Shown here piece by piece: positions 1 through 53,098 of a stretch of DNA of 64,000 nucleotides; within the stretch, counting starts at the first letter, position 1; each line of letters begins with the position of its first letter. Source of the DNA: Paramacrobiotus metropolitanus (lineage: Eukaryota > Tardigrada > Eutardigrada > Parachela > Macrobiotidae); contig NW_026570233.1 of the NCBI RefSeq assembly GCF_019649055.1, positions 1,612,001 through 1,676,000 of the forward strand, read 5' to 3'. The translations under genes and the position numbers were made by a program. The notes below the pieces were generated by a model. It was not told the origin of the DNA. It did not search any database and was given only the letters and a program-made list of their open reading frames with translations.

Positions 1-1615
1 AACTTTTCATACCTTGTTTATCGCGAGGAAACAGCTGCAACATCTCGCTGTAACGGTTATCGTATTCGTCCCTGATGTGTTGGCGGTCGTCCCGCCTGCC
101 GGGCAGAAACGTCAGCACACCGCGCACCGCTCGTCGAGATGTATTGTGCCAACTGACCAATCGTAGGCAGTAGCGAGCATCCGGAATCCGCTCCCAGAAG
201 ATCTCTAAGCGGTGCCCAATGATCTCGTGTAGAAAAACTCTGGATTTCTGTCCGGCATCTTGCTGCAGCTGTACGCAGTGAACCTTGCTGCCGTTTACGA
301 CTGCCGTGGAAAATACAAGCAGGAAATTAGGTGAACGGACGGTTTTCTGCAGGAATCCCATGCACAATTCGCCCCGAAAAGCTACCGGCGGCAAATGGCT
401 GCTCAGACTGGTTATCTCTAGAGATTGTGTAGAGTGACCATTTTCTAGATGGTTAACTACTTTAACTACTTCATCCATATCCAGTAAGGATCCGATCTGC
501 AGTCGATGGACTAACTGCACCATGTCTGGATCCCCTTGAGAAACACGGCTGTCCAGATAAGCGGCCACCGCTGCGCCAAAGGTCTCCGCATCGTCCACAT
601 AGCTCACTATGCGTTTGTCTAACGGTTTCTGCTGCAACGTCTTCAAAATGCCGCGTAATGGGACAAAACGGGAATTCTCGCCTACCAGCAGGATATCGAT
701 CGGCCCGGCGATGCAAGAGCCCGTGTCCAGCATACCTAAGCGCGCTAACTGCAACAAAAGCCGATTGCGAATATAGTCGACAATCGGCATAACAATCTCT
801 TCGTACTGATGCCGTGTGATAAGGACCTCATAACTATGGTACGGTGCCTTTACGGTAACGGACTGCGTGTTCTCTTCGTTGAATTCTTTCCACTGTCGCT
901 CACATTCTTTTTCCAGTTCAATTCCGCCAGTCAACTTCCAGCTCCGGCATACCGGCTTGCTGTAGCCCCTCCATGACCTTTTCCAGCAGACGATCCCGCA
1001 TCTTACTGAAGACATTCAGAAGCGACGCATTAGCTAAGTGTGCCAGATAGTTCGTGCGCACCACCTCGAAGGTGTCGGTGTGAATGTCGTTGTAGGTGGC
1101 GTTATAGACCAGGAAGTGCGCTTTGGATTTATCGGGTCGCAGTGGTATGCGCCGATCCAGTGTCAAGGTCGCATAGGCCAGCAACACAGCGGTGGCTTCG
1201 CTGACTAGCAGGAGCGATTTAATGTCGCTGTGCTGGCAAGCGTCCTGGAGCACTTTCGGCATCGTAGTATGCTCCAGCACAACTTCCGGCAGAACCAGAC
1301 ACATTCCTGTTACACTGGGGACCCCGCTAGCGGCGGCCACCTGCTTGACATAGAGCAGGAATCTCTCTAAAAGTGCAGATAGGAGTAGTGGAACCGATTG
1401 CTTTGCTGCCGTATCCAAGAGGGTGTTTTAAGGGAACGGAGATGTTCAAAGGTGGGCTCGTTGCGGTAGCTGCGCGCTTCTAGGCCAAAGTACCACTCGG
1501 TCTGGTCTTCCCGATACGAGACAATTGCCGGAAAGGACGCTACAACCCGCGGGACTCCCTGCTGAAATGTGCTGACAGAAACGGTTTTATATCCAGTTTC
1601 CAGTCCAATGTTCAT
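1..1615 (-). pseudogene. Divergent HSP70-like gene, cut by window edge, two frameshifts
   Basis: The reading frame opens at ATG 1615 (MNIGLETGYKTVS) and runs leftward off the window. The N-terminal part replaces the HSP70 phosphate-1 motif IDLGTT with IGLETGYKT. It is followed by a segment matching the HSP70 ATPase lobe: LLVSEATAVLLAYA around 1200 corresponds to the canonical INEPTAAAIAYG, and ILLVGENSRFVPLRGIL around 690 corresponds to the adenosine motif VLVGGSTRIP. The frame has to change near 1418-1435 and again near 918-930. Each half is otherwise open, over 500 and 900 nt. Either the gene is decaying or the assembly carries two single-base errors next to short homopolymers. The degenerate phosphate loops suggest a non-canonical chaperone relative even if the gene were intact. 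The second HSP70-like gene at 6.3 kb lies 4.7 kb away in the opposite orientation. The family assignment is firm; the functional state is not. Confidence 0.7.
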
Positions 1616-1620
1616 GATTT

Positions 1621-2283
1621 AAATGGATGGTGTCGGCACGGTCTAAACACTACGTTATTGGCGGTTAAAAATCACATGAACTGATATTGAAAGTAATGAT
1701 TTAAAGTAATAAATCGCTGCTTACCTGAAGAAAACGGAAACTGAGATACAAAAGAGGTATATAGAAATTGGTAACAATTTAGCAGAGAACTGCAATACTT
1801 TTAAACGGGACTCATAACGGTAGAGGTGAACTAACCGAGTACAGTACTAATATCAAAAATTAGTGGCAGCCATGAACCGCCTTCTAAAGTACTTATGGAT
1901 GGTAACATGCTCGATGAATGCACTGTGACATCAATAATTTAAAGTTAGGCTGCGCTGCAACATGTTTAATTATGCACTACTTGTATCGCTTACCGGCATT
2001 TTAAAGTTTTACAGTGTATAACGTACGCTGGTGTGTTCGTAGTTGTTCAGTGTTTGACGTCTATAAGAGTCAGTAAGACGATTTTCCGGTAGTAATGCTT
2101 CTCGCTTGAAGGTATCAAATGCCGGTACAAAGAGAACCTTCGCGTATACGGATAAACGGACCGTTTTTCACTTGTACCGATCACAAATTATTGCTGTAAA
2201 ACTGAACTCACGCGACGAGATATAATACGTCTTTTGAAACGGAAATCCGGCCGAAGGAGATGCATAACCGCATTCCAGTAGTA
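1621..2283. other. Intergenic, no gene recognised
   Basis: AT-rich sequence upstream of the leftward HSP70-like gene. It should contain that gene's promoter, but no heat-shock element array or TATA box stood out. No open frame of note. Confidence 0.5.
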
Positions 2284-2338
2284 CTACTCGAAACGCACTT
2301 TAAATGCGTTCTGTAAGATACAGAGCCGGGAGTTCTGT
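2284..2338. repeat. Left arm of inverted-repeat pair enclosing the LINE
   Basis: About 55 bp that recur in reverse complement at 5801-5856 with only a handful of differences. The shared core includes CACTTTAAATGCGTTCTGTA followed by GATACAGAGCCGG. The arms enclose 3.5 kb holding the LINE, so the LINE either inserted into an older inverted-repeat element or lies between two inverted copies of a short element. A weaker related fragment (GCGCATTTAAAGTG) is at about 38370. Confidence 0.7.
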
Positions 2339-2925
2339 AAAAGTGAATCTACCAATGGTACAGCGCTGAATCTTATAGAGCGTTGAAGAGCAACGAGACC
2401 ATGGTTTCTAAAAGCGCCCAGTTACCGTGGTTGAATTGGTCAACAATTTATTTATTTCTAACAACAATTTTGTGGCCGTTTCCTTTCTCTTTTTCTGGCG
2501 ATTTTAAGTTGTGTTAAGTTAAGAAATCCAACGACTGCTGAAAAAGCGAAAGGCAATTCCACGTAAAGTACGCCGAGGTATTCCTCGCGCTGACGGCTAT
2601 GGCGAAGTTGCCTGTTGCCACCGCTACAAATTCAAACGTGCACAGTCGGAGGCAGCTAAAATCAGTGAACAAAGCAGAACTGGAATATGTTGATTTGATA
2701 GAAACAATTAAACTCTCGTTAATTACACCCTCAAAACTTGAAAATTAAAAATAGGACTTTAGACGTACAGCGGACTGTGCATACACATCAAAAAATAAAT
2801 CTGACGTAGCTAGAAATGCGAGTTTTGTATCGTAACGGAGCCAGGAGAGTTCCTTTTAGATACAGAACACTTTTACTCGTTCGTCCAATCAGTTTTTTTC
2901 GAAAGGGGCTGGCATCAAAAACCAC

Positions 2926-5772
2926 ATGAAGGCCTGCAAGTCCCGCTCATCTGGTCTTCCCGTCCCAACTGCATCCTCCAGTAACGCCGCCGGAGCTGCA
3001 CCGACTCCGCCCCCGTCGGACAAGCCCTTCAAGCCGTCGAGTGATCGTGTTATGCGGCGTATACCACACGGTGCACGGCCTGCCACCAGAACGTCGTTCC
3101 AGAAGGTTCTCCAGCGGGTCGCCACAAAGAACGACAAATCCAGCTGGCTAAAGCTGCTCTCCTTCGCCCCATCTACGCTTCGTGTCCCGCCGAAGGCAAA
3201 GTCTGAGCAAGCGAGTCGCTGGTGTCTGTGATAAAGAGAAACCTGGAGTTGTACGACCAAGATGCCGAACTTTCCCTACCCCACCCCTGGCGCCACTAAG
3301 AAACGGCCTGATAGTGAAGACCTGGTTCGAAGAGTTGGTCAAAGATTGATGACGGCTGCATCTCGGGGCCATGCGTCTCATCTTGTCGACGGATGCCATC
3401 GCTCCCCTTCTCCTGATGTGCTGCAAGAGTTAAGGGAGAAACATCCGGAATGCCCACCCCCGCCATTACCGCCTCAGCTCAGTCCGCCTCCAGATGCAGC
3501 GCCACCTATTACTGCGGCCGAGGTTTTTGCTGCCGTACACTCATTTCCACGGGGATCGGCAGCGGGACCAGATTCCTTGCGGCCACAGCACCTGCTCGAC
3601 ATGGTTGGCCACAAACTGGATGACCACTCCAGGCCACTCTGTGAAGTACTAGCCGCTGTACTAAACCTAGTTATCGATGGAACTTTACCTGACGATGTCC
3701 GTCCTAATTTCTTCGGTGGAAAGCTGCTCGCTTTACGAAAGAAGGATGGAGGCCTGCGCCCGATTGCGATTGGACTAACGCTGCGCAGGTTGACAGCCAA
3801 AATCATCTGTTCCAGAGTGGCCGATCGTGTAACAGCCATTCTATCGCCACAGCAACTCGGCTTCAATGTTCGCGGCGGGGCAGAAGCCATTGTACACGCG
3901 ACCAGAGTTTTTATGGAATCATGCACAGCTGAACCTACGGTAATTCTGAAAGTGGACTTCAGAAACGCCTTCAATACGGTATCTAGGAGGCCGTGCTCAG
4001 CGCTGGGAGTTACACCTCCCCGAATACAGTAAGTTTCTTCAATCAGCATACGGACACCACTCGTCGCTTTTCCTAGAAGATTTTCTCCTGTCGTCGGAGT
4101 CGGGCGTACAGCAAGGAGATCCATTGGGCCCACTATTATTTTGCCTTGCTTTACTCCCGGTTGTGACCGATCTCAAGGCAGAGCTGAACGCTTGGTTTTG
4201 GACGACGGAACCATGGGCGGTAAGCCAGCGACAGTGGCCCGAGCCTTTGACGAAGTGATAGAACGTGCGCAGGCTATTGGTTTGGCTGTCAACGAGGCGA
4301 AATGTGAACTTTTGTCGATGGGGAACGGTGGAACAGCAGAACGAAGTCGTGGAATATTTTGTTGAAAGATATCCAAAACTGCGGATTTTAACTAGGTCAT
4401 CATTTTCATTACTCGGCGCGCCAGTCTTGGATGATGCTATCGGCCCAGCAATTGTTGAGAAATCCACCCTGTTGAAGTCGGCATGCGAGCGACTGCAGCT
4501 GCTACCTGCCCATGTCGCGTTGTTCCTGTTGAAGAATTGCCTTGGTGTCCCTAAGATCGTGTACATGTTACGGTGCTGTAACGCGTGGAAGCAACCACAA
4601 CAGCTCTACCAGCTTGACGAAGTGACGCGCGAGTGTTTTCAGACCTTGTGTAATGTGCGGACCAACAAAAATGATTATCCGTGTTGGCGGCAGGCGTCTC
4701 TTCCCGTGAGCAGAGGTGGTATCGGCATTCGTCGAGCGGAAGAATTAGCTCTCCCAGCCTACTTGGCTTCGATTCACTCCGCATCTGCACTAATGTCGTT
4801 ACTTCTTCCCAATCACGCTGTAGTGGACGCTACTGATGCACGGGAACAGTGGAAAGTGATGAGTGGTCAGACAGATCCCCCCCGAACTCAACTTCCAAAA
4901 AGTCTCAGAGATCATGGGACCTACCGCTCTGCAATGCGTCACTGTCAACATTGCTGGACGTTTTTCGTGACGATGAAATTAACAGAGCTCGTCTCCTTGC
5001 TCAATCTAAACCGGAAGCCGGCATCTGGTTAAATGCGCTGCCTTCGGCACACATTGGAAACCTCCTCGATGACGATACATTAAAGATTTCAGTTGGTCTA
5101 AGGCTGGGCGCAGTAATCTGTGAAGCACACTCATGTGCAAAATGCCGCAAACCAGTCGACGTTTATGGTCACCACGGACTGTCATGCTCCTTCTCTGCAG
5201 GTAGACACGCTCGCCATGGCGGGCTAAACAGTATTGTCTGCCGATCATTAGTTTCGGCGGGCATCCCAGCGAAGCTCGAGCCCGCGGCACATCCCACACG
5301 TCCGATCGTCGCCCGGACGGGTGCACGACGTTCGCCTGGAAACGTGGCATGTGTTTAGCCTGGGACGTCACTTGCGTCGACACTGTTGCCCCATCGCATA
5401 TCAAGTCCACTTCGGCATCCGCGGGATCCGCCGCTGCCCAAGCCGAAGACAGGAAGACCAGTCTGTACGCGTACCTCGATGGTAGATACATTTTCGCGCC
5501 GTTAGCCTTCGAAACACTCGGACCATGGGGCAAGTCGGCATCCGCTCTAGTGAAGGAAATCGGCAAGCGACTGCAGCAGCACACTGGTGAACCTCGATCA
5601 CATGAATTTCTACGCCAGCGTCTGTCTATCGAAATTCAACGGGGAAATGCGGTGTCCGTTTTTGGAACTATGGATGTAACGGACAACTTAAGAGAAATTT
5701 TTCTGTTATAATTATTCTTGGTTTATTAACAAAATTTGCAGTGTGACTGGCTTGTGCTAATAAAGACACATC
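2926..5772 (+). mobile_element. Non-LTR (LINE-type) retrotransposon, reverse transcriptase pseudogene
   Basis: A decayed reverse-transcriptase ORF in several frames. An N-terminal Pro/Ser-rich part (2926-3231) ends in two stops. The frame at 3262-4032 carries finger/palm blocks such as KKDGGLRPIAIG and LKVDFRNAFNTVSR. Palm continuation with SGVQQGDPLGPLLF lies near 4100. The catalytic [YF]xDD block near 4195-4210 is broken by what looks like a one-base deletion, leaving LDDGT in a different frame. The thumb region is 4265-5032. A C-terminal part (4849-5711) has a Cys/His segment (CRKPVDVYGHHGLSC) and the block WDVTCVDTVAPSH. At least four frame changes make it inactive. The 3' UTR ends near an AATAAAGA stretch at about 5760-5772, shared with the second copy at 63390-64000. 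It is a LINE-class element; I cannot name the clade with certainty. Confidence 0.88.
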
Positions 5773-5800: not shown

Positions 5801-5856
5801 ACAGAACTTCCGGCTCTGTATCATACAGAACGCATTTAAAGTGCCTTTCGAGTCTA
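5801..5856. repeat. Right arm of inverted-repeat pair enclosing the LINE
   Basis: Reverse complement of 2284-2338. It lies about 30 bp beyond the apparent 3' end of the LINE, so it is not part of the LINE itself. Confidence 0.7.
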
Positions 5857-6303
5857 GTTATTGTCTATTGTCTAAACTGCTGTTCGAGGTTCACACATTG
5901 TGGTCAAGATCACATTTGACATTCATACTATTGCCGCAGACTTATGACTCGACAGTACCGCATTAAATCGGCGTATACACATCAAAAAGTATCGCCTTTT
6001 AATCACGCTTGCACGTCACTGGGGTAGACTGTCAGGTTCAGTGCTGACAAGCTGCAAAATACGCGCTCGTCGGACATCCGGCTTTTATGTGCGGTAACCA
6101 TATTATATAGCATTTCCCGTGTGCGGCACATTTTCCTGAGCCTTACTGTTGTCATAGGAAGCGTGTTCCGTTAATTTAAATTTGCAGTTGCGTTTAAAGT
6201 TTAGATTAATCATGCCACTTTTAAAAAGCGGCATGACCCACCGCAACGGAAAATATCGGATCCCGATTCCGGCAGCGGTATCGGTCCCGTGGAGGATCAC
6301 ATT

Positions 6304-8284
6304 ATGGACAGCAAGGACGGTAAGGACGGAGTGGGCATTGACCTGGGCACCACACACTGCTGTCTGTACGTATACAAACACGGCCGCAGTCCGCAGTTGC
6401 TGAAGAATCTGGTCGGGGAGACCACCACGCCCAGCTGGGTGTGCTATGAAAAGGGCGGAAATAATGTGGGCCATTCGGCCAAAACGCAGAGCCCGCAGAA
6501 TCCTAAGAACACCATCCGCAATGCCAAGCGGCTCATTGGGCGCGGTTTCGATGATTGTGCCGTGCAGAACGAGGTGGCCCGGGTTCCGTTTAAAGTAATA
6601 AACCAAAACGAAATCCCGATGATTCCGGTATCTAAGCGGCATTTAAACATATGAGACGCTCGATCTCTTGCTAACACTGCTACTTCTGGCAGTTGCTCCA
6701 GCGAAGCGAAGTGAAAGGTATTCTTAAGCTTTTTGTTAAGCAACATAAAAGTTCGCCGGTCTAACGTACAATATTGCGTCGCTCAATGTGCGATTCCTGT
6801 ACCTGGCAGTGCATAATTATGTGTAATTCTACCGAGCGAGCCGGCGCTTGCGGTTTTTTCTAAGGCGTAGCGGAAGGCCGATGATACAGCAATGGTGCTC
6901 GGGTGGAACGGACATTTTGTTGCCCATATCCTTATCCAATGCGTATAATTTAGAACTTCTTTACTTTTTGTTTATATTAAATAGATCGAAAATTAAAATT
7001 GTAACGTATTGTAGGATCGTTTCGCTCAGTTAAAAAATTAATATGATTGTGTTGCAGGTTGAGCAGCAGAACGCGGCAAGGGAGACCACATGGAGTGCCA
7101 CGATGGCGCCGGAGGAAGTCAGTGCAACACTGCTCAAATATATGAAGGAAATCGCTGAGAACTTTCTGGGCGCGGTCTCATCCGCGGTAGTGACCATCCC
7201 GGCCAATTTCATGGAGAGTCAACGAGCGGCTACCATAAAAGCGGCGAAAATTGCCGGCTTTACCGAGGTAACGCTCCTCAGCGAGCCCACGGCCGCGGCC
7301 ACTGCCTACAGCCACGTTGTGGACGAGCGCTGCACTATCCTGGTGTTTGATTTCGGCGGCGGCACCCTGGATATCGCTATCATGGACGTGCAGGGTCGCA
7401 ACCAATACCGGGTGCTGACCACGGACGGGGACATGTATTTCGGTGGGGAGGCCTTTGACGATGCCATCGTGCAGTACTTTCTCCAGGATATCAAATCCAA
7501 ACACGGCGTTAATCTGAAAGATGACACCCGCGCCAAAGCCGTTCTCAAACTGAAAGCCGAAGAAGCCAAGATCCATTTATCCTATCCGTACCATAATTTT
7601 TACAAGGAGACCGTTTACGGTCTACCTGATGCTTTGAAATACGAAGCCGTTCTAAATCGGGACACCTTCAGCGGGATGTTCGACCGGTTGCTGAAAAAGA
7701 TGCTAGAACCGGTTAAAAGAGCTCTGCAGTCTGCCGGGAAAACCGCCGAGGAGATCGACAAGGTCATTCTTGTCGGGGGCAGCACGAAATTGCCAGCGGT
7801 ACAGGAAGCGTTGCGGAAGTTTTTTCGGGCGGACATTGTCGCGGCAGACGCCACCCCCGATGAGGTGATTGCGCGGGGCGCCGCCATGCATTGCTACCGT
7901 GTCAATAACCACCTCCCGGCCAATGTCACCGAGGTCACGGCGTTTCATTACAGGCTGAAATTGTACCACGGGGACGTGTCGGAATTGATCCCGCGCGGCA
8001 CCGAATTCCCGTATAAATTCAAAAAAGTCTACCGCACCGCATATGATAATCATGTCGAGGTGGTTTTCGACGTCTTCCAGAGTAAGCACGGATTCACCGC
8101 TGATAAGTTCCAGATTGGACATTTTAAAATCAAAGATCTCCCTGCACGGAAACAAGGGGAATGCGCGTTTGATGTCACGTATGAGATCGATCGCAATAAC
8201 ATTCTGCATGCCACGGCGCAAGGCCAGTTCGATTTGGCGAATTACAAGCGGAGCGTCGATATTAGTCTGGCCAACATGGCGTAG
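6304..8284 (+). CDS. Short HSP70-like protein lacking the C-terminal lid
   Basis: Two exons, 6304-6627 and 7058-8284, joined across a phase-0 intron (CCG|GTATCT ... TTGCAG|GTTGAG). They give about 516 residues against about 640 for cytosolic HSP70. The ATG at 6304 is followed at residues 11-17 by GIDLGTT (phosphate-1). Then come KNTIRNAKRLIGRGFDD, FDFGGGTLDIAI around residue 206 (phosphate-2), and ILVGGSTKLPAVQEAL around residue 347 (adenosine motif). So the ATPase domain looks complete. The interdomain linker is unusual: the hydrophobic DVLLLD-type linker is replaced by VTEVTAFHYRLKL. The substrate-binding beta domain is recognisable (LIPRGTEFPYKF, FDVTYEIDRNNILHATA), but the protein stops right after it, with no helical lid and no EEVD tail. 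It may bind clients without lid closure; that is inference. No promoter elements were identified. Confidence 0.9.
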
Positions 8285-9358
8285 ACGGTGGCAACTGTAA
8301 CAATTTCTACTAGAGCAACACCGAACCATGTGTAATCAACAAACAATTTTATGTTTTCATAATGTCGCATTTCAAAATAATATAATTCAGCGTGCGTGTA
8401 TCGAGCACACGGTAACGACTACTCATGGAATTCCATCGCATATTTTTGTACGTCGAAAGCTGTAATAAATGTGGTCCACCGGCTGAGGAATACAAAAAAA
8501 TTGATAATGTTCATGTGATCGTTTAAGTTCCTATTCACAGCGACAAACGTTAAGTGAAAGTGATCGTTGGACTGAAATAACGATGTTATAGAAAAAACAA
8601 GCACTGGTCACTACATAAAAATGTGTTAAAGGAAAAGCAGAACATGTGTCGACGCAGCTTTGTTTGATTCTTCTCTCTTTTTTCACAAAATGCGGTTCAA
8701 TGTGAAACGTGGCGTTAGCTGTTAAGAGGTCATAACTATTATGTTTAGAAAAACCGTCGGTTGCATGAGTTCTAATGCACTGTTGCCGGTTTGCTGATGT
8801 CGAAAGTGAACGTTGATACAAATTCAAACGTATAACATAGTGAGCCCACAGAAAACTGCATGCTGCATAACAATAGAATATCGCGCGGTGAGAAAACATT
8901 GCATTTGTTTCTTCAGGCTAAATCAACGCATAGCAATAACGCCCCGTGTAATAATTTGTATCAACGAACCGTGTGCAGCTAAAAATATGAGTGTAACCTC
9001 ACTGTGACTAAGACTCTCAATTTGGTCGCTCGCCGTGAGTGAAGTCTTTTCACAGAGCAGAGCCTGTGCCGTTAAAATTTCCATTTAGCTGATTTTGCGA
9101 TGATATAGCGACTGTTTGTCTGAGTAACTTCCGGTACATTGCTAGTCATCATCGATGCGTTTTTTTTCTCGAAATGACGCGACTTTGACCGGCTGTGACT
9201 ATCATTCAAAAACGACAGCCACTCAAGCAACAAAAAAGGCACATTTCGTCCGTTCGTCGTAACGCTACTTTTTACCGATTTTAGAAAGGTATTGAGCTTA
9301 CGTGATAAACAAGTTATTAAATAACTAACGATCGCGTTCAGTGTACCCGTTTTAAAGG
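8285..9358. other. Intergenic, no gene recognised
   Basis: AT-rich, with only short unconvincing open frames. It contains the 3' end of the HSP70-like gene and the presumed promoter of the next gene. Confidence 0.5.
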
Positions 9359-10213
9359 ATGGACGATCTTATACCGATTCATTTTCCATTTCTGGATCCC
9401 TTGCGGAATTTAGCGGCTAGCGAGGCTTTAAAGGTTGCGGTGAGGACCATCAATACCGTGCTAGATAAGCTGCATCCTTCCTCCACACCGGAACGCAGTG
9501 CCCTGCTGCGCTACTGGGTGGATTTCAACGATAAAGACACGCTGCTGGCCATTCAGCACGCCCTGGCCGACGCCGTCATCGTCCCCAACCAGACCATTAC
9601 CTCGCAGATGTCCCGCTTGGAAGCCCTGATCTGCTACAGCACCACGGACCAGCAGATTGGGCGGGTCTACCATTACTGGGAAACCTTGATTCAGGCCACG
9701 CCCAATACCGAGCACTGGCATCAGCGGGAGTTTCTAGAGGAGTGCCAGCGCTGTGATCCCAAGGGCCTGCTGGTGACCCTGTACCATGGGGTCCGCGTGG
9801 AGTACCCGGTGAATGCGCTCTTGCCGAGTATTATGCAGAGCTGCGCGGATTATCGGGCGTATGAAGTGTGGTGCGACCATATCGCCATGAACGCGTTTCG
9901 GGCGTACTTGTGCGCCGTCACGAAACTGATGCATCGGCATCAGCAAGACGAGGGCGTGTCCAGTGCGCTGGTCGACACGGAGGTATGGACGATGCTGCGG
10001 CAGGTGGAAGATATCTGGATCGCTCTGGAACGGTCGAAGACAGTGTGTCAGGAGAAGATTTTCATGATGAAGGAAAACGACCCCGCGTCGCCGCTCAATA
10101 AACTGATCGAAAGTGCTATGTTGGCGGCAGATGATAAAATGCACGATGACAACGGTTTGTGTGCACAGCAGCTGGCCCGAGATTTAGAGCAAAGGTACAA
10201 AGTAAACTGTTGA
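9359..10213 (+). CDS. Uncharacterised intronless 284-residue protein
   Basis: A single uninterrupted frame from ATG 9359 to TGA 10213, the longest simple ORF on this strand in the region. Its codon use is G+C-richer than its flanks, like the HSP70-like exons upstream. The product has no signal peptide or membrane segment. It looks mostly alpha-helical, is rich in Leu, Gln, His and Cys, and is acidic overall. I recognise no domain. It sits 1.1 kb downstream of the HSP70-like gene and 0.6 kb upstream of another orphan gene, all on the same strand. A cytosolic lineage-restricted protein is the simplest reading. Confidence 0.75.
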   Translation: MDDLIPIHFPFLDPLRNLAASEALKVAVRTINTVLDKLHPSSTPERSALLRYWVDFNDKDTLLAIQHALADAVIVPNQTITSQMSRLEALICYSTTDQQIGRVYHYWETLIQATPNTEHWHQREFLEECQRCDPKGLLVTLYHGVRVEYPVNALLPSIMQSCADYRAYEVWCDHIAMNAFRAYLCAVTKLMHRHQQDEGVSSALVDTEVWTMLRQVEDIWIALERSKTVCQEKIFMMKENDPASPLNKLIESAMLAADDKMHDDNGLCAQQLARDLEQRYKVNC

Positions 10214-18399: not shown

Positions 18400-18635
18400 A
18401 AGGAAACAAGGCCGATAAAAGCTATGACAAAAGCAAGAACTGTTATCTTCACGGCTGTGGCCCCACTTGTACACTGGTACGAATTGCCAAGGGTCGATAC
18501 AAAATCGGAAAATGTCTTCTTTTCTCCTTCACCGCAAGCTGTACCGATCGAGTCTGCAGAGACTTTGGCCGTAAACTGGTTGTAGATCCTATTACACGAG
18601 AAAGAAAGATAAGTCAAAGGAAACCACAGAAGTAG
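18400..18635 (+). CDS. Candidate exon of a six-cysteine secreted-type peptide
   Basis: A good acceptor (TTTCACTGCCTCAG) at 18399 opens a frame to TAG at 18635. It carries six cysteines spaced C-x4-C-x3-C-x14-C-x8-C-x4-C among basic residues, followed by a basic tail. Small disulfide-rich secreted peptides have such layouts. No signal-peptide exon was identified upstream, so the gene is incomplete as seen. I recognise no family and assign no function. Confidence 0.4.
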
Positions 18636-38774: not shown

Positions 38775-39422
38775 ATGAAACCATACACCTTTGCGGCTCT
38801 AAAAGCCCTGGCGACCTGTGGACCGAAGTTTGCGACACCAAAGATCGCATTCCAACTCCTCAGGCACCATAAGACTGACGACATCGGTGGAGGTTGGAGG
38901 CAACTAAGCCAGAGCAACGTATACCGGTACTGTAACCTTGGGTACAACGAAAGTAAACTCATACGGACATATACCAGCAGCAAGCGGATGTACTACGAGT
39001 TCCCACCGGAGAAACGAGACCCGGCGCCGACCACTTACGAAGGTTGGGCACATGCCATTGAAGCGTGTATGGAGATGTCGTGGCACCCGGAAGGACTGAC
39101 CCGCGGCGAAGTTCTACATCAGCGGGTAGCTAGGTTCGAATTCAAATGGGAAGCTGAGAAACCTCAGCTAGTCGACATGAAGTACAAGCCCACGAACAGA
39201 ATGAAAGGAGGCGAAAAGTACATGCTGGGCGACGACCTGGACTTCGTCCTTAACAAGGGATTCTTCCAGAAGAGATTTGGTATCAGCCAGACTCGGGAAG
39301 GCGAACGATACGAAGCCCTCAACCCATCGACACACCGACATGGACATTTACCGAAGCATCCACCGACCTCGGAGCAACAGACCAAGTCAGCCGACTCTCT
39401 CCAGGTGAACCGGGTGGAATAG
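38775..39422 (+). CDS. Uncharacterised 215-residue protein inside a repeat-flanked unit
   Basis: Intronless frame from ATG 38775 (MKPYTFAALKALATCGPKFA) to TAG 39422. It is hydrophilic and basic with many Tyr, Lys, Arg and Glu, and has a Lys/Gly-rich middle (KPTNRMKGGEKYMLGDDLDF) and a Thr/His/Gln-rich tail. No signal peptide or membrane segment. G+C content is clearly higher than the flanks. It sits between GTCGACC/GACATTTC-type arrays, which suggests a mobile unit that inserted where the 5' half of dermatopontin-like gene B should be. I recognise no transposase signature. It could be a transposon-encoded accessory protein or a captured gene. Confidence 0.55.
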   Translation: MKPYTFAALKALATCGPKFATPKIAFQLLRHHKTDDIGGGWRQLSQSNVYRYCNLGYNESKLIRTYTSSKRMYYEFPPEKRDPAPTTYEGWAHAIEACMEMSWHPEGLTRGEVLHQRVARFEFKWEAEKPQLVDMKYKPTNRMKGGEKYMLGDDLDFVLNKGFFQKRFGISQTREGERYEALNPSTHRHGHLPKHPPTSEQQTKSADSLQVNRVE

Positions 39423-39635
39423 ACCAATGGATGAGGAGACGTAGAATACGTCGGAGGAGTCGCAGAACCGACCTCCTTCATGAGTACCACATAAGTACTT
39501 ATGATTACCGACCTCCTCTTGGACACAACAAAATGTCCCGACTTACCGCAATAGGGAATGTATTCGCCCATGGCCAGCTTCAGTCTCACGTGCGTCTCCA
39601 GTTCTGCTTTACCTGTTTCGTTTCCACTTTGAAAG

Positions 39636-43900: not shown

Positions 43901-45960
43901 ATACAACCTCGATACACCCTTTAGGCACAATGCTGGAATAAAAGCATTTTATCGTGGCACTTTAAACCGATAATTACCTAAGTGCGGTAGAGTATAGTAC
44001 AGTCATTGCCGCTCTACAATAGTTCCGACTGAACAGTCTGAATTATTGTTGGCCGCAATGGTACAGTACCAGCATGACACACGATGCGTCAGGCTGTAAT
44101 CTGGGTTCTACCCTCTGTAGAACCCCCTAAGTCTTAGGAAACGGTTTTACAATTATTATAACTGCAAGATATTTACCGGTGCCGCTGTGACAATAGTAAC
44201 AAAACTCTAGTTGTGTTATGGCTTTGAACTTCGAAGTACGCAACGTAACCTGCCACGGAGGCTTTTGCAATGCTGTTGGGTATCCGTTAGCAAAACTCCC
44301 AGACTAGAAATATACGTGCGATCTCAGAAAGCAACTAACTTTTGCTGCTCATATCAAAACGCTATTCTTATGTTCCAGGTGTTATATTCTTCATACGTCT
44401 AAATATTTACCTATTTTTAGTGTGTTCCCAAGTACAGACTTTAAATACTATGTACATAACAGCATGAATGCTTGTAGTACAATAGTACTCGTATAATAGT
44501 TTAAGTAACGGGCGGTGGTTAAACCACAGCATATCGGTAAATGTTACGCAGCGCTGAGCGCTGCGACTAAATCATTACCACCTTAGCTAACTTAGAATTA
44601 TACCTACAGCACACAGTTAGGCTGATAATTTATTAATTTAGTCTTCGCAGTGAACTTGACGCTTATAATGTGCAAGTACTGAATTTGCAAGCATATCTGT
44701 ACGAAATTTGTTGGTAATACATGTAGGACCTTTTTAAGCTAACGTATAAACCATCAAAATTTTATATTTACGCATAATAAAAGTACACAATGCACAGGAC
44801 ACAGTAGCGTCTTCAGACTTATCAGAAGCTTTCAAGAAAAATTCTGCTAAATGTCAATAATAATTAAAGCAAAAAGATATGGAACAACAATTAAACTACA
44901 CAACTTACCCATACTAGCACCATAGTCGAATACTCAAATTCCGAGAACGCAGATACAGGCTGATACGAGTTTATTTTGGCTTCGCGCGTCACTATGATAC
45001 CGTAATTCCTAGCCAGTTTAATAGAGTCCACCTTTCATGAACGTGACAGTAGGGGCAATTGCCGCGGTATTGTTAGCCACTCTAAAAAATTATAGCGCCA
45101 GAAATCAGAATCACAACGTTAGACGCAACTGATTTTAGCGTACGCACACCGTACAGCAGGATATACCGTAAATTTGCGTACCGCTCGTGTTCATCTGCTT
45201 GTGTCACACGCTTATTTTTGCCGCTCTATGCAACGGGGAAAATAATCAATTAGCAAACAAGAAGATAAGGTTAGCTGTTTGTGGAGTTACACTGTAAGTG
45301 TAAAAACGCGCTTGTACTTGGCGCCGGTTTTTTTGGAATAACAGCAAAGTTCACGTGCAAGTAGACGAGCCGAAACTGTAGTGCAATAGATGAAAAATTA
45401 CAACCTGACACACTGTTTACAATTGTTAGTGTTTGCCACCTTACTGGCACTTGCCCGTAGTCTGTAGTCGAAACACTCACAAAAACGCGGCTTCACTCAA
45501 CTGTCTTTCTCCTTGCAGACATGTTCTCGTAATGTTGACAAGCGATTATAGCACTGGATTTTCCTTTCCGGTCCGAAACTGTTTGTGTATAATACTGATG
45601 GCCTGCCGCGTAGAGTGTTACTGGGTATGTTTAATTAGCATTATATTGCTTAGTTTTTTTTTAAAATTTCACTTAAGGATTGTAAAAGTATGAGCACCAG
45701 TACCATTACAATTAATTGCTGTTTTAATATTACGAGTAGTGTTTCTATCTTTAAGCATGCAGTATTAGTATCGCAGTAAGTTATTGTTATCAAACAGCAG
45801 AAACGACTGGCCTAATCACAGAAAAAAATTGATCTATGTTAGCCAAAATAAGTAACGTAATGCATACAGTGCAAAAATATTATTATCGCTATATATTCAG
45901 TACATAATTTAATTACATTATGTGCAACAAATTACTAATGCAGTTTTAGGGATAATCATT
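43901..45960. other. Intergenic, no gene recognised
   Basis: AT-rich with only short, compositionally unconvincing frames. The switch to the G+C-richer island begins at about 45990. Confidence 0.5.
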
Positions 45961-46196
45961 GCCACTTTCGAGTACAACGTTAACTCATACAGCATGAACT
46001 GCTGTGACGTGCTGCAGGCTGCCTTCTGAGCCTGTCCCGACAGTTGCGGTGGGGAAGTTCCCGTTCGTCCGTCTGGGGCAGTCAGCCGAGTTGCTCTCCT
46101 TGTGTGGGAGAGTTGAAAAATAGGGCAAGCGAAGGTGGCAGGGATCGCTTTTGCGATCAACCTGTTGCTACCACAGTCGCAAGACAGCAAAGACCA

Positions 46197-46239
46197 GGTT
46201 GAAGCAGAGGCTGCGTTCGCAGTCAATCTGTTTTCAACC
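46197..46239 (+). other. Two-tier hairpin
   Basis: Outer stem GGTTGAA/TTCAACC. Inner stem GGCTGC/GCAGTC (one G-U on the + strand) with loop GTTC. A separate GATCGC-TTTT-GCGATC hairpin lies just upstream at about 46143-46158. Confidence 0.7.
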
Positions 46240-46584
46240 ACGGGTTCTCCGAGTTCTCCGCGAAAATTACGCCTTTACCGTCTCCTCAAAGGATCCGGTG
46301 GACAGAAAACCAGACGATCTGCTTACCATGTGACAGGCAAGCGCAGGGAGCTCACAGAGTGCCTTTATTGTACAAATAAAGTGGAGCAAATACCGCGTGA
46401 TTGCGGGAAAAGAACAACAAAGCCAATGTCTGGCAGAAATCAGCAAGTCAAGTTGCTGCGAGCTAGTTCTAGAGCGTAATGAAATGTAGAGAATAGAATG
46501 CGCTGGCGGCAACGGCGTCACGCTGGCCAGACACAAGGAATGTGAGTGCGCAGACTGGACTCGTATCCAACGCGAGCGTATATG

Positions 46585-46622
46585 CGCGTACCGGCGACCC
46601 CATGTGGGGTCGCCGGTACGCG
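46585..46622. other. Perfect 18-bp inverted repeat with 2-nt loop
   Basis: Arms CGCGTACCGGCGACCCCA and its exact complement, spacer TG. Flanking CAGACTGGACTC and GAGTCCGGTGTCTG extend it as an outer imperfect stem (about 46547-46650). Confidence 0.9.
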
Positions 46623-47321
46623 TCCTCTTCCAATGGGAGTCCGGTGTCTGTTGACCGTTCCATCCTTCACCTCCAGACCCATGAGAGGCAAGCAACTCAC
46701 GGCCGAAAATCTGGAAGCCGCTCGGGGTTCGTTGTTGGACCGGTATCGCTTCTGTTGGCAGGCATCTTGCTTCTGTTGGCTCGCGGAGAAAGTAGAAGAA
46801 AAGTTTAATGACGGTTAAACAGCACGAGTTAAAAAGTAATAAATTTTAATCACAATTCCAGTGAGCAAAAAGTAAATACAAAACAGATCTGGTTAAAGTT
46901 TCTAAGTAAAATACAATTCCGTTTGTTCGAAAATGTATAAAAATACTAAAAAGAAATCTGTCCGGGGGCTTATTCCGACTAGGATGACGTCCACGGGTCT
47001 TGGGTTTCCACGGGGTCTCCTGTCTAAATGCAGTCCGGTGTGTCAGGTCCGGGGCGTCGGTTCCCGGGTTACCTCACGTAACCGGTAAGTTCGTCCGAGG
47101 TCGGGTAAGCACGGCTGACACTTGCGTCCGGCTCGTATTTTATCCGTTCCGGGGAGGGAGGCACTGTCGCTTTTGCGATTGCCGAAGCATCCTCTCTAAG
47201 TAAGGGGAATGGACCAAGGTCGTCAGACCAAGGTCGACCTACTGGCAAGCTTTTAACCAGCGGTCATGGAATCCGGCTAAGTCCCGAATTCCAAAGTTCA
47301 GGTCAGGTCGGACAAAACCGT

Positions 47322-49597
47322 ACTTGTGTCGTGCGACTTCTGTGGTCGCCAAGTGGTAATGCCGATGGAGTGTGGTCGGTTAAAACCGTTAAATCTGCTA
47401 CCACGAGCCTGGTTATGACTTCCGATGCGAACTGGCTCGAAGGTCCGGTCGGAATTGTTGTTCCATCCATCCACTGTTGGTTCGCTCTTGTCATCCGACC
47501 TGTTGTCGGTTGGGATGGACATCCGACCTGAGGTCGGTCGTAATGTTATCCGACCTGAGGTCGGTAATAACGCACCTCCATGGTCGACCTCGGTAACTCG
47601 TGTTATTTAGGCCCATGTGGGGCTAAACATGTCCCGTTAGGTCGAATTCGTCCATTTCGAGGTCGTTTCCAGTTCCGATCTCCAGTTTTGTGATCATTCA
47701 CCGACCTGTTATCGGTGGCTCCTGGTATCCGACCTAAGGTCGGTAGTAATGCTGTACGACCCGAGGTCGGTTACCACGTGATTGGTCCGTTCGAAGGTCG
47801 TATTTCGGCTAATCCGCTGGTGTTTCAAGCGAATCCGAACAATCCGGCGTTCCTAATCGACTTCTGTGGTCGGTTGGACCGGTTTATCCGACCTGAGGTT
47901 GGTGGTTCCATGTTCAACCGAGGTAAGTTACGGTATGCAGGCTCAAAGTGGAGCCGTACAAGTCCGTTTCGGTCGAATCATCTTCCTAACCGACCTGTTG
48001 TCGGTGACTTCGCTTTTATCCGACCTGAAGTCGGATGTAATGTTGTCCGACCCGAGGTAGGTGATTCTTCATCCAGGTCGATTCCGTCCGTTAAGAGGTC
48101 GCTCTAAGCCTCTGGGCACTTATCTAGACTCCGTGAAATCGTTTTGGAGCGATATCCAGTTCGTGCCTCTAACATGCCCTGGTTCGGGCTCGCGTCTTTG
48201 CCTCTGGACGGGTCCGAGTTCCGTCGAATTTGGCTGTTCTATGGCGTCTGTTGGCCGTTCAGCATGCACTCCCGGTCACTTATGGTATCAAAGGACTTCT
48301 GTGGTCCCTTTTTAACCAGGTAATCTCTTTGGTTCGTTTGTGCGTCGGGCCCCGACTTATGTCAGACAGCCCGTTCCTATCCCCATGCAACATGCAACCT
48401 GAAGTAGAATCAGATCACTTCTTCCCTGGTGTGGAGTTCCTTCTTTCGGTTCCGCGAACCTGTGACGCCTTGCCTCTTCGGTCGGGGGAAGACATCGCAC
48501 GTCCACGGGGAATTTTTCTTTGCCGGTGACGCTGGCCAACTGGCCGTTACTGTTGCGGGCAGGTGGTGATCGCCATCGGGGTTGAGGGGGTGCAGGTCGA
48601 GCATCCTAACTCGGTCTGCCTAGGATGTTCCATTTAAGACATGGGGAAGCAGGTCGCGGCGGAGTCGTTGGTACGCCGGTAGCCAAATCACCGTCGCTGT
48701 TCCTCTTCAGGGAATAGCAGCACGTTCGAGACGCGCCGAGTCGTGGTCACCGGTGAATCGGTTGGTTTATCCGATGTCCTCCGGGGGAGACTACAGTTGG
48801 ACTCCGGGTACAGGTTCCTAGTTGAGAGCCTGTAGATCTGGGTTCAACCGGAGAATCCGTCCCGACTGGTTAGATACCGCGGTCGGCGGTCGTCATTACC
48901 GCCTTCTGTGGTCAGTAAGGGTTACCGTAAGGCTATCCGACTTGCGACTTTCCGTGTGCTTCCGTATCAAGTCGACATCCGTTGGTCGAATGGTGACATT
49001 TCTGAGGTCGGCTACCGTTGGTAAAATCGACTTCTGTGGTTGATTCTAGGTAGCAGGTCGTAGTTGACACGGTCCGCCTTGTTACGCACGATTAATTCTT
49101 GATTCTTACTTCCGGAGTCCGGTTGCCGGAGTAAGCCATGGGTGCCTTGGCAAGCATGGTCTGGAACACGCCGTAAAGCCGTGTTTCGGGACATGCTAGC
49201 GGAATCCTCGCTGGTTTCTGCTCCGGAGTCCGGTTGCCGGAGTGTTTTCTGCAGCTTATTTCTCGGATGTAAAGTTGAAACTTTACCGATTTCTGTGGTC
49301 GGCTAAGTTATCCAAGTCGTAACGAGGGGGTCCAAGTTCTACCTTGAGGTTGGTTGACTTCCGTGGTCAACAACGGTAGTGGATCGTAATTCTGTGGCAC
49401 AGTCTGGGCCACTTCATTCCGTAATTTAGCTACCTCGGGAATGGTCAACTTCTGTGGTTGACTGAGGTAGAAGGGTATAATTACCGTCGCGATCTGCGAA
49501 GTTAAGTTTTTAGGCGGGGAGTCCGGTTCTTCGCTCCTGCCTTAATTCAATGCTCGATGTCGTAACAGGTCGGTTTTGACTTCTGTGGTTAATTCCG
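47322..49597 (+). repeat. Dispersed hairpin family with invariant TTCTGTG loop (9 copies)
   Basis: Copies (including outer stems) are at 47322-47354, 47853-47877, 48290-48311, 48896-48918, 49012-49054, 49279-49309, 49339-49379 (loop TTCCGTG), 49430-49470 and 49571-49597. Nearly all share AC-TTCTGTG-GT with a covarying stem: GCGAC/GTCGC, CTAATCGAC/GTCGGTTGG, GTTGAC/GTCAAC, GTCAAC/GTTGAC, AATCGAC/GTTGATT, CCGAT/GTCGG. Several have a second, lower stem (ACTTG/CAAGT, GCTACC/GGTAGC, CTACC/GGTAG, CTACCTC/GAGGTAG), often separated by a 5-8-nt bulge mainly on the 5' side. Spacing is irregular (70-600 nt), so this is not a tandem satellite. The copy at 48896 is the most degenerate. Confidence 0.85.
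47495..48061 (+). repeat. Second hairpin family, CCGACC-TGA-GGTCGG type
   Basis: About nine copies: 47495, 47523, 47550, 47699, 47729, 47757, 47888, 47989, 48018 and 48047 (starts; the least regular is 48047). Stem variants include a G-U (CCGACC/GGTTGG at 47888) and an extended ATCCGAC/GTCGGAT at 48018. Loops vary (TGA, TAA, CGA, CTGTT). Confidence 0.8.
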
Positions 49598-49787
49598 AAC
49601 CATGTGACATGCTGGACCGATGAGGATACCACTGTCTGCGGTGATGAAAGTTACTGGTTGGTTACCCGGTCCTAAAGTCGACCACGGGTGCCAGGCAAAC
49701 ACGGTGTGAAACAAGCGCAGCGACGTGTTTCGCACCATGTTAGCGTAATCCTCTCGGTCTGTACTCCAGAGTCGGTTGGCCGGAGTA
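49107..49787 (+). repeat. Duplicated structural unit: long stem followed by CTCCGG hairpin
   Basis: Unit 1 has a 17-pair stem (49154-49170 with 49180-49196) and, 24 nt later, CTCCGG-AGTCCGGTTG-CCGGAG (49221-49242). Unit 2 has a 15-pair stem (49699-49713 with 49726-49740) and, 21 nt later, TACTCC...GGAGTA (49762-49787). An extra copy of the CCGG hairpin is at 49107-49134. The two long stems differ by paired substitutions (G-C to A-T at the base, C-G to G-C inside, G-U to A-T). Confidence 0.8.
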
Positions 49788-50253
49788 ATTTTCTTCGGTA
49801 GCAGAACGTGGTTCACGATATGCTATGTTAGCGGGCCGGGGCGTCTGTTGTCTCCGGTCGAAGCAGATGTGGTTATCGATCTGCTCAAGCCATGCTGGGG
49901 AACTAAGGTCGGTTGCCCAATTCGTTCCAGGGGATTCCTCGGGGGACGTACCGGTACGGTGAAAGAACCGAAGCACCGCGGTCTTGACCACACGTTTCCG
50001 GGTCTGACCGAAGAATCCGGCCAACATGCGTGGTTGGCGCTTCTGGCTTAGTCGTGGTTCACGTCTGCTGTTTTAGGATCAGTAAGAAAACTAAAGAAAT
50101 ATCCGTTCCACGTTTCCAGGTCGTTTCTCGACGGTGCTGTTTCTCAGCTGGGCAGGTTCTCCGCCAGGTCGATTCTCGACTCCGCCGTTTCTCGGCTAGG
50201 TGTCCCTTCCTTGCTGTTGAAGTGGGGGACTCAGGTTCGCATGTGGGAATCTG

Positions 50254-52397
50254 TTATCCCAAGGGGACTGAGATCGGCGGGTCTCCACCGAAGTAGTCCT
50301 CATCTTCTTCGTCGTCAGGTTTCGGTGGTTTACCCAGGCGTCGGAAGACATCGGGTTTGCATGTTGCTGGTGGCTGCCCACTCTGTTGTGGAGTATCTTC
50401 CTGGCCGGGATGTTCCGCCCGCGCCTTCTTGGCTTTCTGGACCTTCCTGCGGAGTTTATGGGCGTTAGGTACCGCACCGGGTGCCAAGTCGTCCGACATC
50501 CCTTCTCCGTAAGGTCGGGAAGTGAATCCGCTAGGTAACGCTTTTTCTTCACGGTACCATTTCACGAATTCGGCCGCATCATCGTCAGGGTCTTTAAAGT
50601 CCTTCCGGAAGGCGTACTTGGACGCGTGCCGTTCCTGTATGTAAAGGAGGTCGCGTAACCAAACTACCAAGATGATGCTTCGCATGGGTGAGCCAAGTTG
50701 TGCGACAATTGTGTCCAGTTCCAGTGGTATGTGGCCAGTTCGGCGTGCTCCCCACAGGGTGTAGTGGCAAAAGTAGTTGCCCAACCTTGCTGCGAAGACA
50801 TACCGTAAAATGGTTGCGTTACGGTCCTCTGGTCCTGGTTCTTCTTCCGGCAAGTACTGCAGTAAGTCCAGGGCCGCTCGAGCTGCTGCGATGACAAAAG
50901 CCGGGTGGGCGTCGGTAATGACAAATTGAGCCACGCTCTCCAGTTGATCGCGCGAATACTCTTGAGGTCCGAGCTGACTTAGGCTCGTCCTCTCCGGTGT
51001 GGACAGAGGTATGTCCAACAGTGCCGGGTCATGCACCGAAGGCAAGGCGTTTGCTCGATTAATCGGGTGATCCACGTTAGGATGGTCGTTCATGTTGAAC
51101 TCACCCATCCAATTGTTTAGTTGGAATCTGGTCTGAAATCCGGATCGGATGAGGAACTGACGCAGGTTTTCTACCATCCGCCAGATCTGTGGTCGGTGTC
51201 GTTCCTCGTATCCTAGAGTATTCATAATGTAATTTGTCCGTTCGTTTGGATGTGGCATAACGACCTCAACTCCCTGTCGTCGGGCGTTGTCGTAGCGAGG
51301 GTCGTCTTGGCTCGGCACTTGCACTGTTGGCATCGAAGCCATCTGATTTGCCACTTCGACATCCATTTCTTCGGATTGGTCTGCCGGTTCCGCCATGTGG
51401 GCTTCCAGTTCTGGTTGTTGTTCGAGTTGGACGAAGTTCCGTTTCGACTTACTGGTTGAGTCGACGACCAGTCCCATACTTGTCTTCTCCGGACTTGACC
51501 GTTTACCAGGTGAAGGTCTAGTCGCTTCACTGTTACCATGTCCAGCAGAGGCTCGTCGTTTCTCGATTCTGTGTCGAGCGTCGTGTCCGAGCCTATGGCG
51601 AAGGTCATGTCCGGCCAGTGGTTTGGCAGGTCGGCGCTGCTATTGAGTCGTCGACGGGGCAACTGGTTGTGCCGAGGGTCCAGGTTGGGGAATCTGCTGG
51701 GGAACGGATGGCTGGGTTTGTGTGACCACTGGAACGACCTTCTGTGGGATCGTTGCCATCTGTTCCTCCGTTGCAGGGTAAAGAGTAACCATTTTCATGG
51801 TTCCATCGTGCTGTCGCATCATCATTTGGATTGACGCGGTTTGAAGAGGTCGGTGAATGTCTCCGACTATCACTTCTCGAATATCGTGAACCAGCTGTTC
51901 CGTGTCAGAGCGGCCTTGTGTGGGCTGCTGCAACCGAACAGTGATTTCTGGCTCATGCTGCGTTGGTGGTGGATGGACCTTCATTTTGGCAATCCTTTCG
52001 TCGACTGCCTTAATCTTCTCACGGTCCTCCTTCTGGCGCCTCAGGTCCTGTTGCTGGCGGTATTCCAGAAGTCAGTTAGTTAATACTGGTGGTGCCGTGT
52101 GAGTCCATCCAGGGTCGGAAGCGCGGTTGCGTTGGATTTCCGACAAGTGGTCCTGTTCATAGGCTCGTAACTGATTGATCAGGCGTTCGCTGCGAGCTAA
52201 GCGTCGGTATGCGCTAATATTTCCAGCGACGACGTTTATGTACAACGCCGCTGCTTGCATCGCGTCACGACGTCCGACCTGTGGAGTGTGTTCGTCCGAA
52301 AAGGAAATTATGCAGTCCGCGCATGGGAGTCTGTTGCCCTGCGGAGTGAGTTCTCTCTGCAATGTCGGCAGTCCGTCGTGTACGCCTCCGTTCGCGG
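50254..52397 (-). pseudogene. Long unrecognised reading frame with two in-frame stops (capsid/gag-like possibility)
   Basis: One frame on the minus strand is open from 52397 to the stop at 50254, broken only by TGA at 52072-52074 and TAG at 51640-51642. Coding character continues straight across both. It may begin after a splice acceptor (TTTTCTTTTAACAG) at 52398-52399. In order: a Cys-containing N-terminal part (LPCADCIISF); a helical part with a charged coiled-coil-like stretch (RRQKEDREKIKAVDERIAK); a Gln/Pro-rich linker; a basic stretch; a folded, Trp/Tyr-rich, mostly helical domain from about 51280 to 50560 (GYEERHRPQIWRMVENLRQF, LGNYFCHYTLWGARRTGHIP); and a Lys-rich then Pro/Asp-rich tail. 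The layout (linker, helical core, basic tail) recalls gag or nucleocapsid proteins, but no family is recognised and no reverse transcriptase or zinc knuckle accompanies it. The stops mean decay, read-through or reassigned decoding. Confidence 0.55.
51733..51754 (+). other. TTCTGTG-loop hairpin inside the minus-strand reading frame
   Basis: AACGA-CC / TTCTGTG / GG-A-TCGTT on the + strand: a 7-pair stem with one bulged A. It has the same loop as the family at 47.3-49.6 kb and links the two halves of the island. Confidence 0.55.
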
Positions 52398-52525
52398 CTG
52401 TTAAAAGAAAAGTTAAACGATCCGTTTCTCGGATTCGTTATCTTATACGAGTTACACCCTATAATTACAACGGTCGGGCCATGCCGGTTCTCAAGCTGGT
52501 CCGAGACACTTATGTGGTGAAATAA

Positions 52526-53098
52526 TTACATACCCAAAAACCATCGAACAAATCCCTGCAACGCAAACGGTTGAGTAATCACAGCGATGTCGGGATGCAC
52601 TTCCATGAAAATATTGTAGCCATGAGTTTGACTCACTGTATTCCTGTAAGTTAAGGACCTTTTTTCCGACTGCAGTATGACCTGTTGCTTAAATCGGCGG
52701 CTTACAGGCTTTTCAGAGAAATATATTAATTTCATTGTGATGTTTAACAAAGGCAGAATGGAAACGATCGTGATGATGCAGCCAGTTGAGTGATGTACAC
52801 CAGAGCCGATAATGCTAATCTGCCGTTTGGGAAACATAGTCACGAATGATATAGCGGTAAAAGCATGCGACGAATCGAACGTGAAGCAACCGGAAGAAGT
52901 ACTAGTTGTCTGCACGATGAGTGTTCTTTTCTCGAATGTATAATAATTATTATTATTATTATTATCTCGTACATGTACAGAGGGAGGGACAACTTGGCTG
53001 TAACTTGGCTGTATCATCAGTAATTTTTGCGAGTCATTGTGAGAACATGCGCTATTAATGTGCGACCATCTTTCGGTCATTAAGTAGTACCGTTGCAC
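52526..53098 (-). other. Open frame of 190 codons, unrecognised
   Basis: The frame has no clear ATG or splice support. Its composition is mixed, with an Asn run from the (TAA)n microsatellite at 52941-52966. One hydrophobic stretch (IITIVSILPLLNITMKLIYF) followed by a basic segment could be a decayed membrane-protein exon. Weak. Confidence 0.25.
52941..52966. repeat. ATT trinucleotide microsatellite
   Basis: Uninterrupted (TTA)n run. Confidence 0.95.

Follow-up and report, generated by a model that had tools for sequence, protein, structure and literature searches.

Hairpins that are read through their loop are familiar from the iron-responsive element and the histone stem-loop. In MS2 and other single-stranded RNA viruses, many scattered stem-loops that share a loop motif and vary otherwise act as packaging signals, the motif of MS2 being short and loose, (x)xYA, in the passages concerned (PMC6281560). 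For the retrotransposon Ty3, RNA packaging is reported to depend critically on the nucleocapsid (NC) domain and its zinc finger, with a likely contribution, in the authors' view, from scattered sites on the RNA (PMC4974528). The cis signals of Ty1 and Ty3 were delimited to the ends of the RNA, and nucleotides 429-4979 of Ty3 are dispensable if the proteins are supplied; no array of repeated hairpins with a fixed loop is described in the packaging passages of this source (PMC4974528). The length limit of retrotransposons is traditionally set at about 10 kb, packaging capacity being one suggested cause, and the planarian Burro elements are gypsy-like, about 30 kb long and endowed with long extra ORFs; hairpin arrays are not mentioned for them in the excerpted text (PMC6431247). 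Giant gypsy-like elements such as Burro and dispersed packaging signals are already known from these excerpts.

The locus analysed here lies in a window of 64,000 nucleotides on contig C13 of the tardigrade Paramacrobiotus metropolitanus (genome of 170 Mb in 533 contigs). Its nine hairpins lie in the 3' part of a giant LTR retrotransposon that has a Ty3-type pol and is present in multiple copies. Dozens of hairpins per element, all in one orientation, carry a near-fixed 7-nt loop on stems that are free in sequence and conserved in pairing. The device is conserved in sister families, with a family-wide difference at the first loop base. This combination of a giant retroelement, near-fixed 7-nt loop hairpins and a family-wide loop difference appears to be new. 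We tentatively infer, in part from analogy, that the hairpins are dispersed cis-acting RNA elements, docking sites read by Gag that would select and condense the long RNA. No Rfam family matches the window at gathering level, nor positions 45900-52600 at E <= 1, which agrees with the preliminary description, where no described family was recognised, and rules out a known RNA family; the loops of the iron-responsive element and of the histone stem-loop are different ones. Among the titles and abstract openings listed in searches of open-licence PMC papers, there was no description of such hairpins and nothing pairing Paramacrobiotus with a retrotransposon.

The carrier element

Positions 46.0-52.5 kb of the window match many other loci along most of their length. 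Neither a stand-alone locus nor a scaffold lncRNA is supported, because members of this repeat family are found on many contigs; the lncRNA suggested in the preliminary description is ruled out since the region belongs to a multi-copy retrotransposon. The reference copy lies on contig C6 (hereafter the C6 copy) and was read as four separate pieces, L016-L019. It is flanked by direct LTRs (451 columns, 98.7% identical) whose outer ends are 29,630 bp apart, and no target-site duplication is evident in the flanks inspected. Its genes all lie on one strand and the long non-coding 3' part comes last. The pol gene (L018:3-3458) encodes the Pfam domains RVT_1, RT_RNaseH, Integrase_H2C2 and rve in the RT - RNase H - integrase order of Ty3/gypsy elements, and the relatives listed mostly have the same domain set. 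Upstream of pol, a Gly/Arg-rich Gag-like ORF, o560, carries a canonical CX2CX4HX4C zinc knuckle, as expected of a Gag nucleocapsid; in a neighbouring ORF, Retrotrans_gag is matched below the cut-off (E 0.13). LTRs, domain order and CCHC knuckle are thus shared with Ty3/gypsy elements.

Size and long extra ORFs recall Burro (PMC6431247). Unlike those of Burro, the three extra ORFs of the tardigrade element (1926, at least 954 and 675 codons) match no Pfam domain at gathering level; a Pfam search with 17 ORF pieces from the C6 copy, those of pol included, gave none of the ankyrin, BIR and MATH domains featured by Burro. Homologues of ORF1926 and ORF675 were found only among P. metropolitanus proteins, one each (about 8000 candidates scored per search), and the predicted structure of the ORF675 homologue has a mean pLDDT of 33. 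At the DNA level, ORF675 has at least 43 matches (40 of 147 candidates scored), including at least 23 near full length at 87% identity or more, the window copy among them, and at least 11 at 68-70%. The pol search gave at least 41 matches (40 of 2187 candidates scored), at least 7 being full length with 95-100% identity. The dN/dS ratio of ORF675 is 0.09-0.12 in 5 within-family comparisons and 0.15-0.22 in 12 comparisons with the sister families, where dS reaches 1.2-1.8. Such purifying selection on the ORFs indicates that the element was formerly active.

The window copy is broken, with two in-frame stops in ORF675 (dN/dS of 0.10 against the C6 copy), a short LTR piece and an inverted piece at 38787-39556 (Table 1). 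This inverted piece, 13 kb off, is the continuation of the element past 52519, an arrangement that either an inversion or an error of assembly could explain. The order of 3' region, LTR piece and 5' leader at 46007-46591 is that of a tandem or two-element junction. Another copy (L012) holds the 3' region of the element twice, at 5814-7098 and 8939-10000. A single minus-strand ORF of at least 120 aa touches the 3' non-coding region of the window copy (46267-46695, at the LTR border). The annotated ORF675 homologue, P0002, opens with a sequence very similar to the ORF1926 N-terminus (noted at L017:8558); this points to splicing of a subgenomic mRNA with a common leader.

Table 1. Features of the element copy in the window (positions are those of the window; E values are those of the covariance model)
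Feature	Position	Strand	Remarks
Hairpin 1, loop TTCTGTG at 47338	47332..47350	+	E 6.6e-4
Hairpin 2, loop at 47862	47856..47874	+	E 6.1e-4
Hairpin 3, loop at 48297	48291..48309	+	E 0.01
Hairpin 4, weak copy, broken stem	48898..48916	+	E 3
Hairpin 5, loop at 49032, lower stem GCTACC/GGTAGC	49026..49044	+	E 0.0011
Hairpin 6, loop at 49291	49285..49303	+	E 0.0097
Hairpin 7, variant loop TTCCGTG	49353..49371	+	E 0.018
Hairpin 8, loop at 49450, lower stem of 7 bp	49444..49462	+	E 2e-4
Hairpin 9, loop at 49581	49575..49593	+	E 0.0022
Extra hairpin, loop TTGTGTG, in leader piece adjoining LTR	46094..46112	+	E 0.003; homologue of L019:1849
Extra hairpin within ORF675 coding region	51561..51579	+	E 0.0062
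Extra hairpin within ORF675, loop TTGTGTG	51910..51928	+	E 0.003
Hairpin in inverted piece of the same element	39482..39500	-	E 0.0049 (minus strand)
ORF675 homologue (function unassigned)	50257..52278	-	93.5% protein identity to C6 copy; 2 in-frame stops
3' non-coding region, minus-strand reading	46591..50253	-	collinear with L016 from 3417 onward, with gaps
LTR piece, shorter than the LTR of about 450 bp in the C6 copy	46329..46587	-	matches L016 2897-3156 and L019 2077-2336
5' leader piece next to LTR	46007..46328	-	matches L019 1756-2076

Loops and stems of the hairpins

With at most one mismatch allowed, the 11-mer ACTTCTGTGGT is found 13 times in the window, where shuffled sequence would be expected to give 0.95, and nine of these 13 matches fall at 47336-49589; the nine hairpins are real and far above chance. 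Their loop is less uniform than first described. The context AC-TTCTGTG-GT is exact in six of the nine and deviates in three (CCTTCTGTGGT at 48902, ATTTCTGTGGT at 49289, a TTCCGTG loop at 49357), while the heptamer itself, present in eight of the nine, is TTNTGTG in the element and mostly CTTTGTG in the sister families. A covariance model whose source is another copy of the element, thus homologous and not independent at shared sites, recovers eight of the nine (E <= 0.018); the ninth, at 48898, is weak (E = 3). Four further copies with E < 0.01 lie outside the interval first described, at 46094, 51561, 51910 and, on the minus strand, 39482. An exact 11-mer off the element, at 18623 on the minus strand, lacks a longer stem (E = 3.3). 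The number nine describes only the local share of a larger set, which counts 38 sites in one element copy.

Throughout the C6 copy, TTCTGTG occurs 27 times, 12 of them flanked by at least five perfect Watson-Crick pairs, compared with 0.34% of all positions. Variant loops with stems are TTATGTG (4/6), TTGTGTG (4/10) and TTCTGTT (4/24); for loops of 5, 6, 8 or 9 nt no word exceeds six (TTGTT, 6/92), six words being listed per loop length. The 38 sites, with stems of at least four pairs and loop variants counted, run from L016:4117 to L019:1849, so that the same 7-nt loop is spread across about 28 kb of coding and non-coding parts, the densest stretch being the 3' non-coding L016:4117-6759 with nine of the 38. 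These counts bear out the irregular spacing and the multiple sites per molecule of the preliminary description. A set of 26 sites was chosen for its stems, making its own shuffle control partly circular; the 12/27 count and the orientation counts given below are independent of that choice. In the whole genome, ACTTCTGTGGT is found 430 times against 93 for the reversed pattern, often in clusters among the first 100 places listed.

Stems vary between sites even beside the loop, where the closing pair is C-G, U-A or A-U and the next one A-U, C-G or G-C. The second, lower stem beyond a bulge is a trait of family A, to which the C6 copy belongs: a lower stem of at least 5 bp accompanies 18 of 38 sites compared with 12.6% in swapped-flank controls. 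It does not extend clearly to family B, where one locus gave 3/12 against 15%. By predicted folding, hairpin 8 has z scores of -4.4 on the minus and -3.7 on the plus strand and hairpin 5 has -3.3 on the minus strand; hairpin 4 is absent from the predicted fold of both strands.

Covariation was assessed at homologous sites by aligning each site of the C6 copy with its counterparts, each copy being used once, which left 32 sites with at least two distinct rows. At 8 sites, 12 stem pairs had one Watson-Crick pair swapped for another. Cells changed on both sides were paired in 23 cases and broken in 6, the paired cells exceeding those of 1000 shuffles (mean 9, maximum 18) that ignore the relatedness of the copies, so that the 23 cells represent fewer events; sliding the partner by 1-3 columns left 1-10 paired cells. 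The site of hairpin 1 reads GTGAC/GTCAC in the C6 copy, GCGAC/GTCGC in other copies of family A and GCAAC/GTTGC in 3 of 10 copies of family B. Two copies have ATCCC/GGGAT at another site, in the 5' part, where a third copy has ATCTT/AAGAT. One-sided changes kept the pairing in 29 cells and broke it in 64, as expected of old, mostly decaying copies, yet unhelpful to the reading as RNA elements. The loop enrichment and the compensatory changes support the earlier proposal of a loop read in sequence and a stem read as structure. Neither outcome named as refuting in the preliminary description was observed: the covariation is above that of shuffles, and the TTCTGTG context does not belong to a simple repeat whose stems are all alike.

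The same data bear on the extremely unlikely case that the hairpins have no RNA function and reflect a repeated protein motif or the leftover of a short amplified sequence. The loops inside ORFs (L016-L018) do lie mostly in one frame, giving a peptide X-T-E/Q that is unexplained, as a protein motif would have it; the coding parts nevertheless show all three frames, and the nine copies and their homologues stand in the non-coding 3' region, for which a protein repeat is ruled out. At a coding site where families have different loop forms, they also differ in the amino acid (E versus K). Amplification is at odds with flanks that differ between most sites and with the covariation at homologous sites. 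Synonymous conservation at coding hairpins is clear at one site, with 60 of 71 identical codons compared with 53% overall, and weaker or absent at four others (30/45 in ORF675; 21/35, 14/35 and 27/39 in ORF954, against 51%).

Orientation and the first loop base

All hairpins counted have a single orientation relative to the genes of the element. The strand on which the loop was first written, TTCTGTG, is antisense to pol, and the loop of the coding strand is CACAGAA. In 14 loci of family A, TTNTGTG stands on stems of at least five pairs in 78 of 179 antisense occurrences and in none of 15 in the opposite orientation, and CTNTGTG in 2/32 and 0/13. In a set of 12 loci of families B and C, the numbers are 34/170 and 0/4 for CTNTGTG and 10/41 and 0/15 for TTNTGTG, all these loci being related copies whose counts are not independent. 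Outside the element, none of 69 such words in the window has a stem of this length. Model hits with E <= 1 in the B and C loci fall on the same element strand in 37 of 37 cases. This one-sidedness points to RNA, a single-stranded molecule, rather than to a site in DNA. A DNA-level device, either hairpins extruded from one strand of the DNA or palindromic sites for a DNA-binding protein, is accordingly very unlikely, even though other types of palindrome crowd the same 3' region: both orientations would be expected, the opposite one having none with stems of at least five pairs, and stems with free sequence and conserved pairing misfit a DNA-binding dimer that reads sequence.

Family B comprises 11 loci at 68-70% DNA identity and has the hairpin loop CTTTGTG, which is also carried by a further locus, L037 (mostly 66-70% identity, up to 90% at one end). 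In family B, CTTTGTG has stems of at least five pairs in 25 of 106 occurrences, compared with a background of 0.25%, and GACCTTTGTGGTC is found 211 times in the genome versus 6 for its reverse. On stems of at least five pairs, the first loop base is T in 78 and C in 2 cases in family A, and T in 10 and C in 34 in families B and C. Seven homologous sites could be compared across both families: four changed from T to C, one is mixed and two are unchanged. The homologous site of hairpin 1 has mostly CTTTGTG loops in family B together with compensatory stem changes, and the stem CTCGA/TCGAG of the hairpin at 51561 is retained by most copies of family B. A coding site in the Gag-like ORF has TTCTGTT in one family and CTTTGTG in the other on the same inner stem, the amino acid being E or K.

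We take the sense strand as the prior for the working RNA, since LTR elements have a sense genomic RNA. Read on the pol strand, CACAGAA, the loop of family A, is open and seven of nine window segments fold with a 7-nt loop (CACGGAA in one); of the other two predicted folds, one has a 9-nt loop and one no hairpin. The two ends of the loop are able to pair on the antisense strand, by U.G in family A and by C-G in families B and C. The family difference could thus be one of pairing rather than of a changed reader.

It is unlikely, but has points in its favour, that an antisense transcript does the work, presenting a UNUGU pentaloop with a closing Y-G pair, for instance in protein titration or in regulation of the element. 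Of the 43 hairpins in the C6 copy, 35 have loops that end in T/G, which can form a U.G pair on that strand only; the ends are C/G, which pairs on both strands, in 10/12, 8/10, 10/16 and 8/9 hairpins of four B or C loci. Seven of nine segments form, in predicted antisense folds, a stem extended by the U.G pair around a 5-nt loop. Single mismatches on this strand are GU in 27 and AC in 10 cases; this ratio offers nothing for the sense strand and leans slightly to the antisense one, although it is not far above the 1.6-2.0:1 predicted from composition (no formal test). Against an antisense transcript, eight of the 43 C6-copy loops end in T/T and are unable to pair, the sense segments fold equally often with their 7-nt loop, and the genomic RNA is the sense one.

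Candidate readers of the loop

The loops may all be bound by a single RNA-binding protein that the element itself encodes; the Gag nucleocapsid, which has one CX2CX4HX4C knuckle, is the most plausible candidate. Acting together, many such sites could pick out the very long genomic RNA and condense it, much like the dispersed packaging signals of viruses, an analogy already drawn in the preliminary description that fits a 29.6-kb LTR retrotransposon as carrier. Stem-loops that share a loop motif throughout the genome are indeed found in the element as in MS2; in place of the loose motif described in those passages (PMC6281560), there is a near-fixed 7-nt loop, a putative protein contact, at about 38 sites. 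The Gag knuckle is the best candidate because the NC domain with its zinc finger is reported to be needed for Ty3 packaging (PMC4974528) and because the knuckle diverges between families A and B. It reads CHFCKFGNHPQARC in o560 and CRHCMFNNHDGARC in the family B homologue, 4 of 10 non-ligand residues being kept (one copy per family), while the two main aligned parts of the Gag-like protein are 66-67% identical. The confinement of Ty1 and Ty3 signals to the RNA ends, in contrast with an array along the element, and the dispensable interior of Ty3 count against packaging, as far as these passages go (PMC4974528).

A further step, conceivable but doubtful, is that the families drifted to different loop addresses jointly with the zinc knuckle of Gag, the loop being an address over the whole 29-kb RNA by which each family selects its own RNA. 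With their different loop letters in one genome, the sister families are a natural experiment on how a protein and its RNA sites co-evolve. A repeated address with a near-fixed loop would explain, in a direct and testable way, how a 29.6-kb retroelement RNA can be recognised and condensed.

The same RNA element could be read instead by a host RNA-binding protein involved in nuclear export of unspliced RNA, localisation or translation control, which we consider rather unlikely. The sites, though present all along the element, reach their highest density in the 3' non-coding region, as is typical of export or localisation elements, and the spliced subgenomic mRNAs suggested by P0002 would make export of unspliced RNA necessary. 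A single host reader would not require the first loop base to differ between families of one host, and the number of sites far exceeds that of export elements as described.

Other repeats and genes were noted in the window. A second repeat family of near-perfect odd palindromes like CCGACCTNAGGTCGG has seven copies at 47493-48065, in the same 3' region as the hairpins. An 18-bp inverted repeat without mismatches, its arms 2 nt apart, lies at 46585-46622, and TCCGGAGTCCGGTTGCCGGAGT occurs three times at 49111-49786, two copies being identical and the third 82% identical. Finally, positions 7043-8284 contain a 413-codon HSP70 (DnaK-type) ORF that may be an exon belonging to a host gene.
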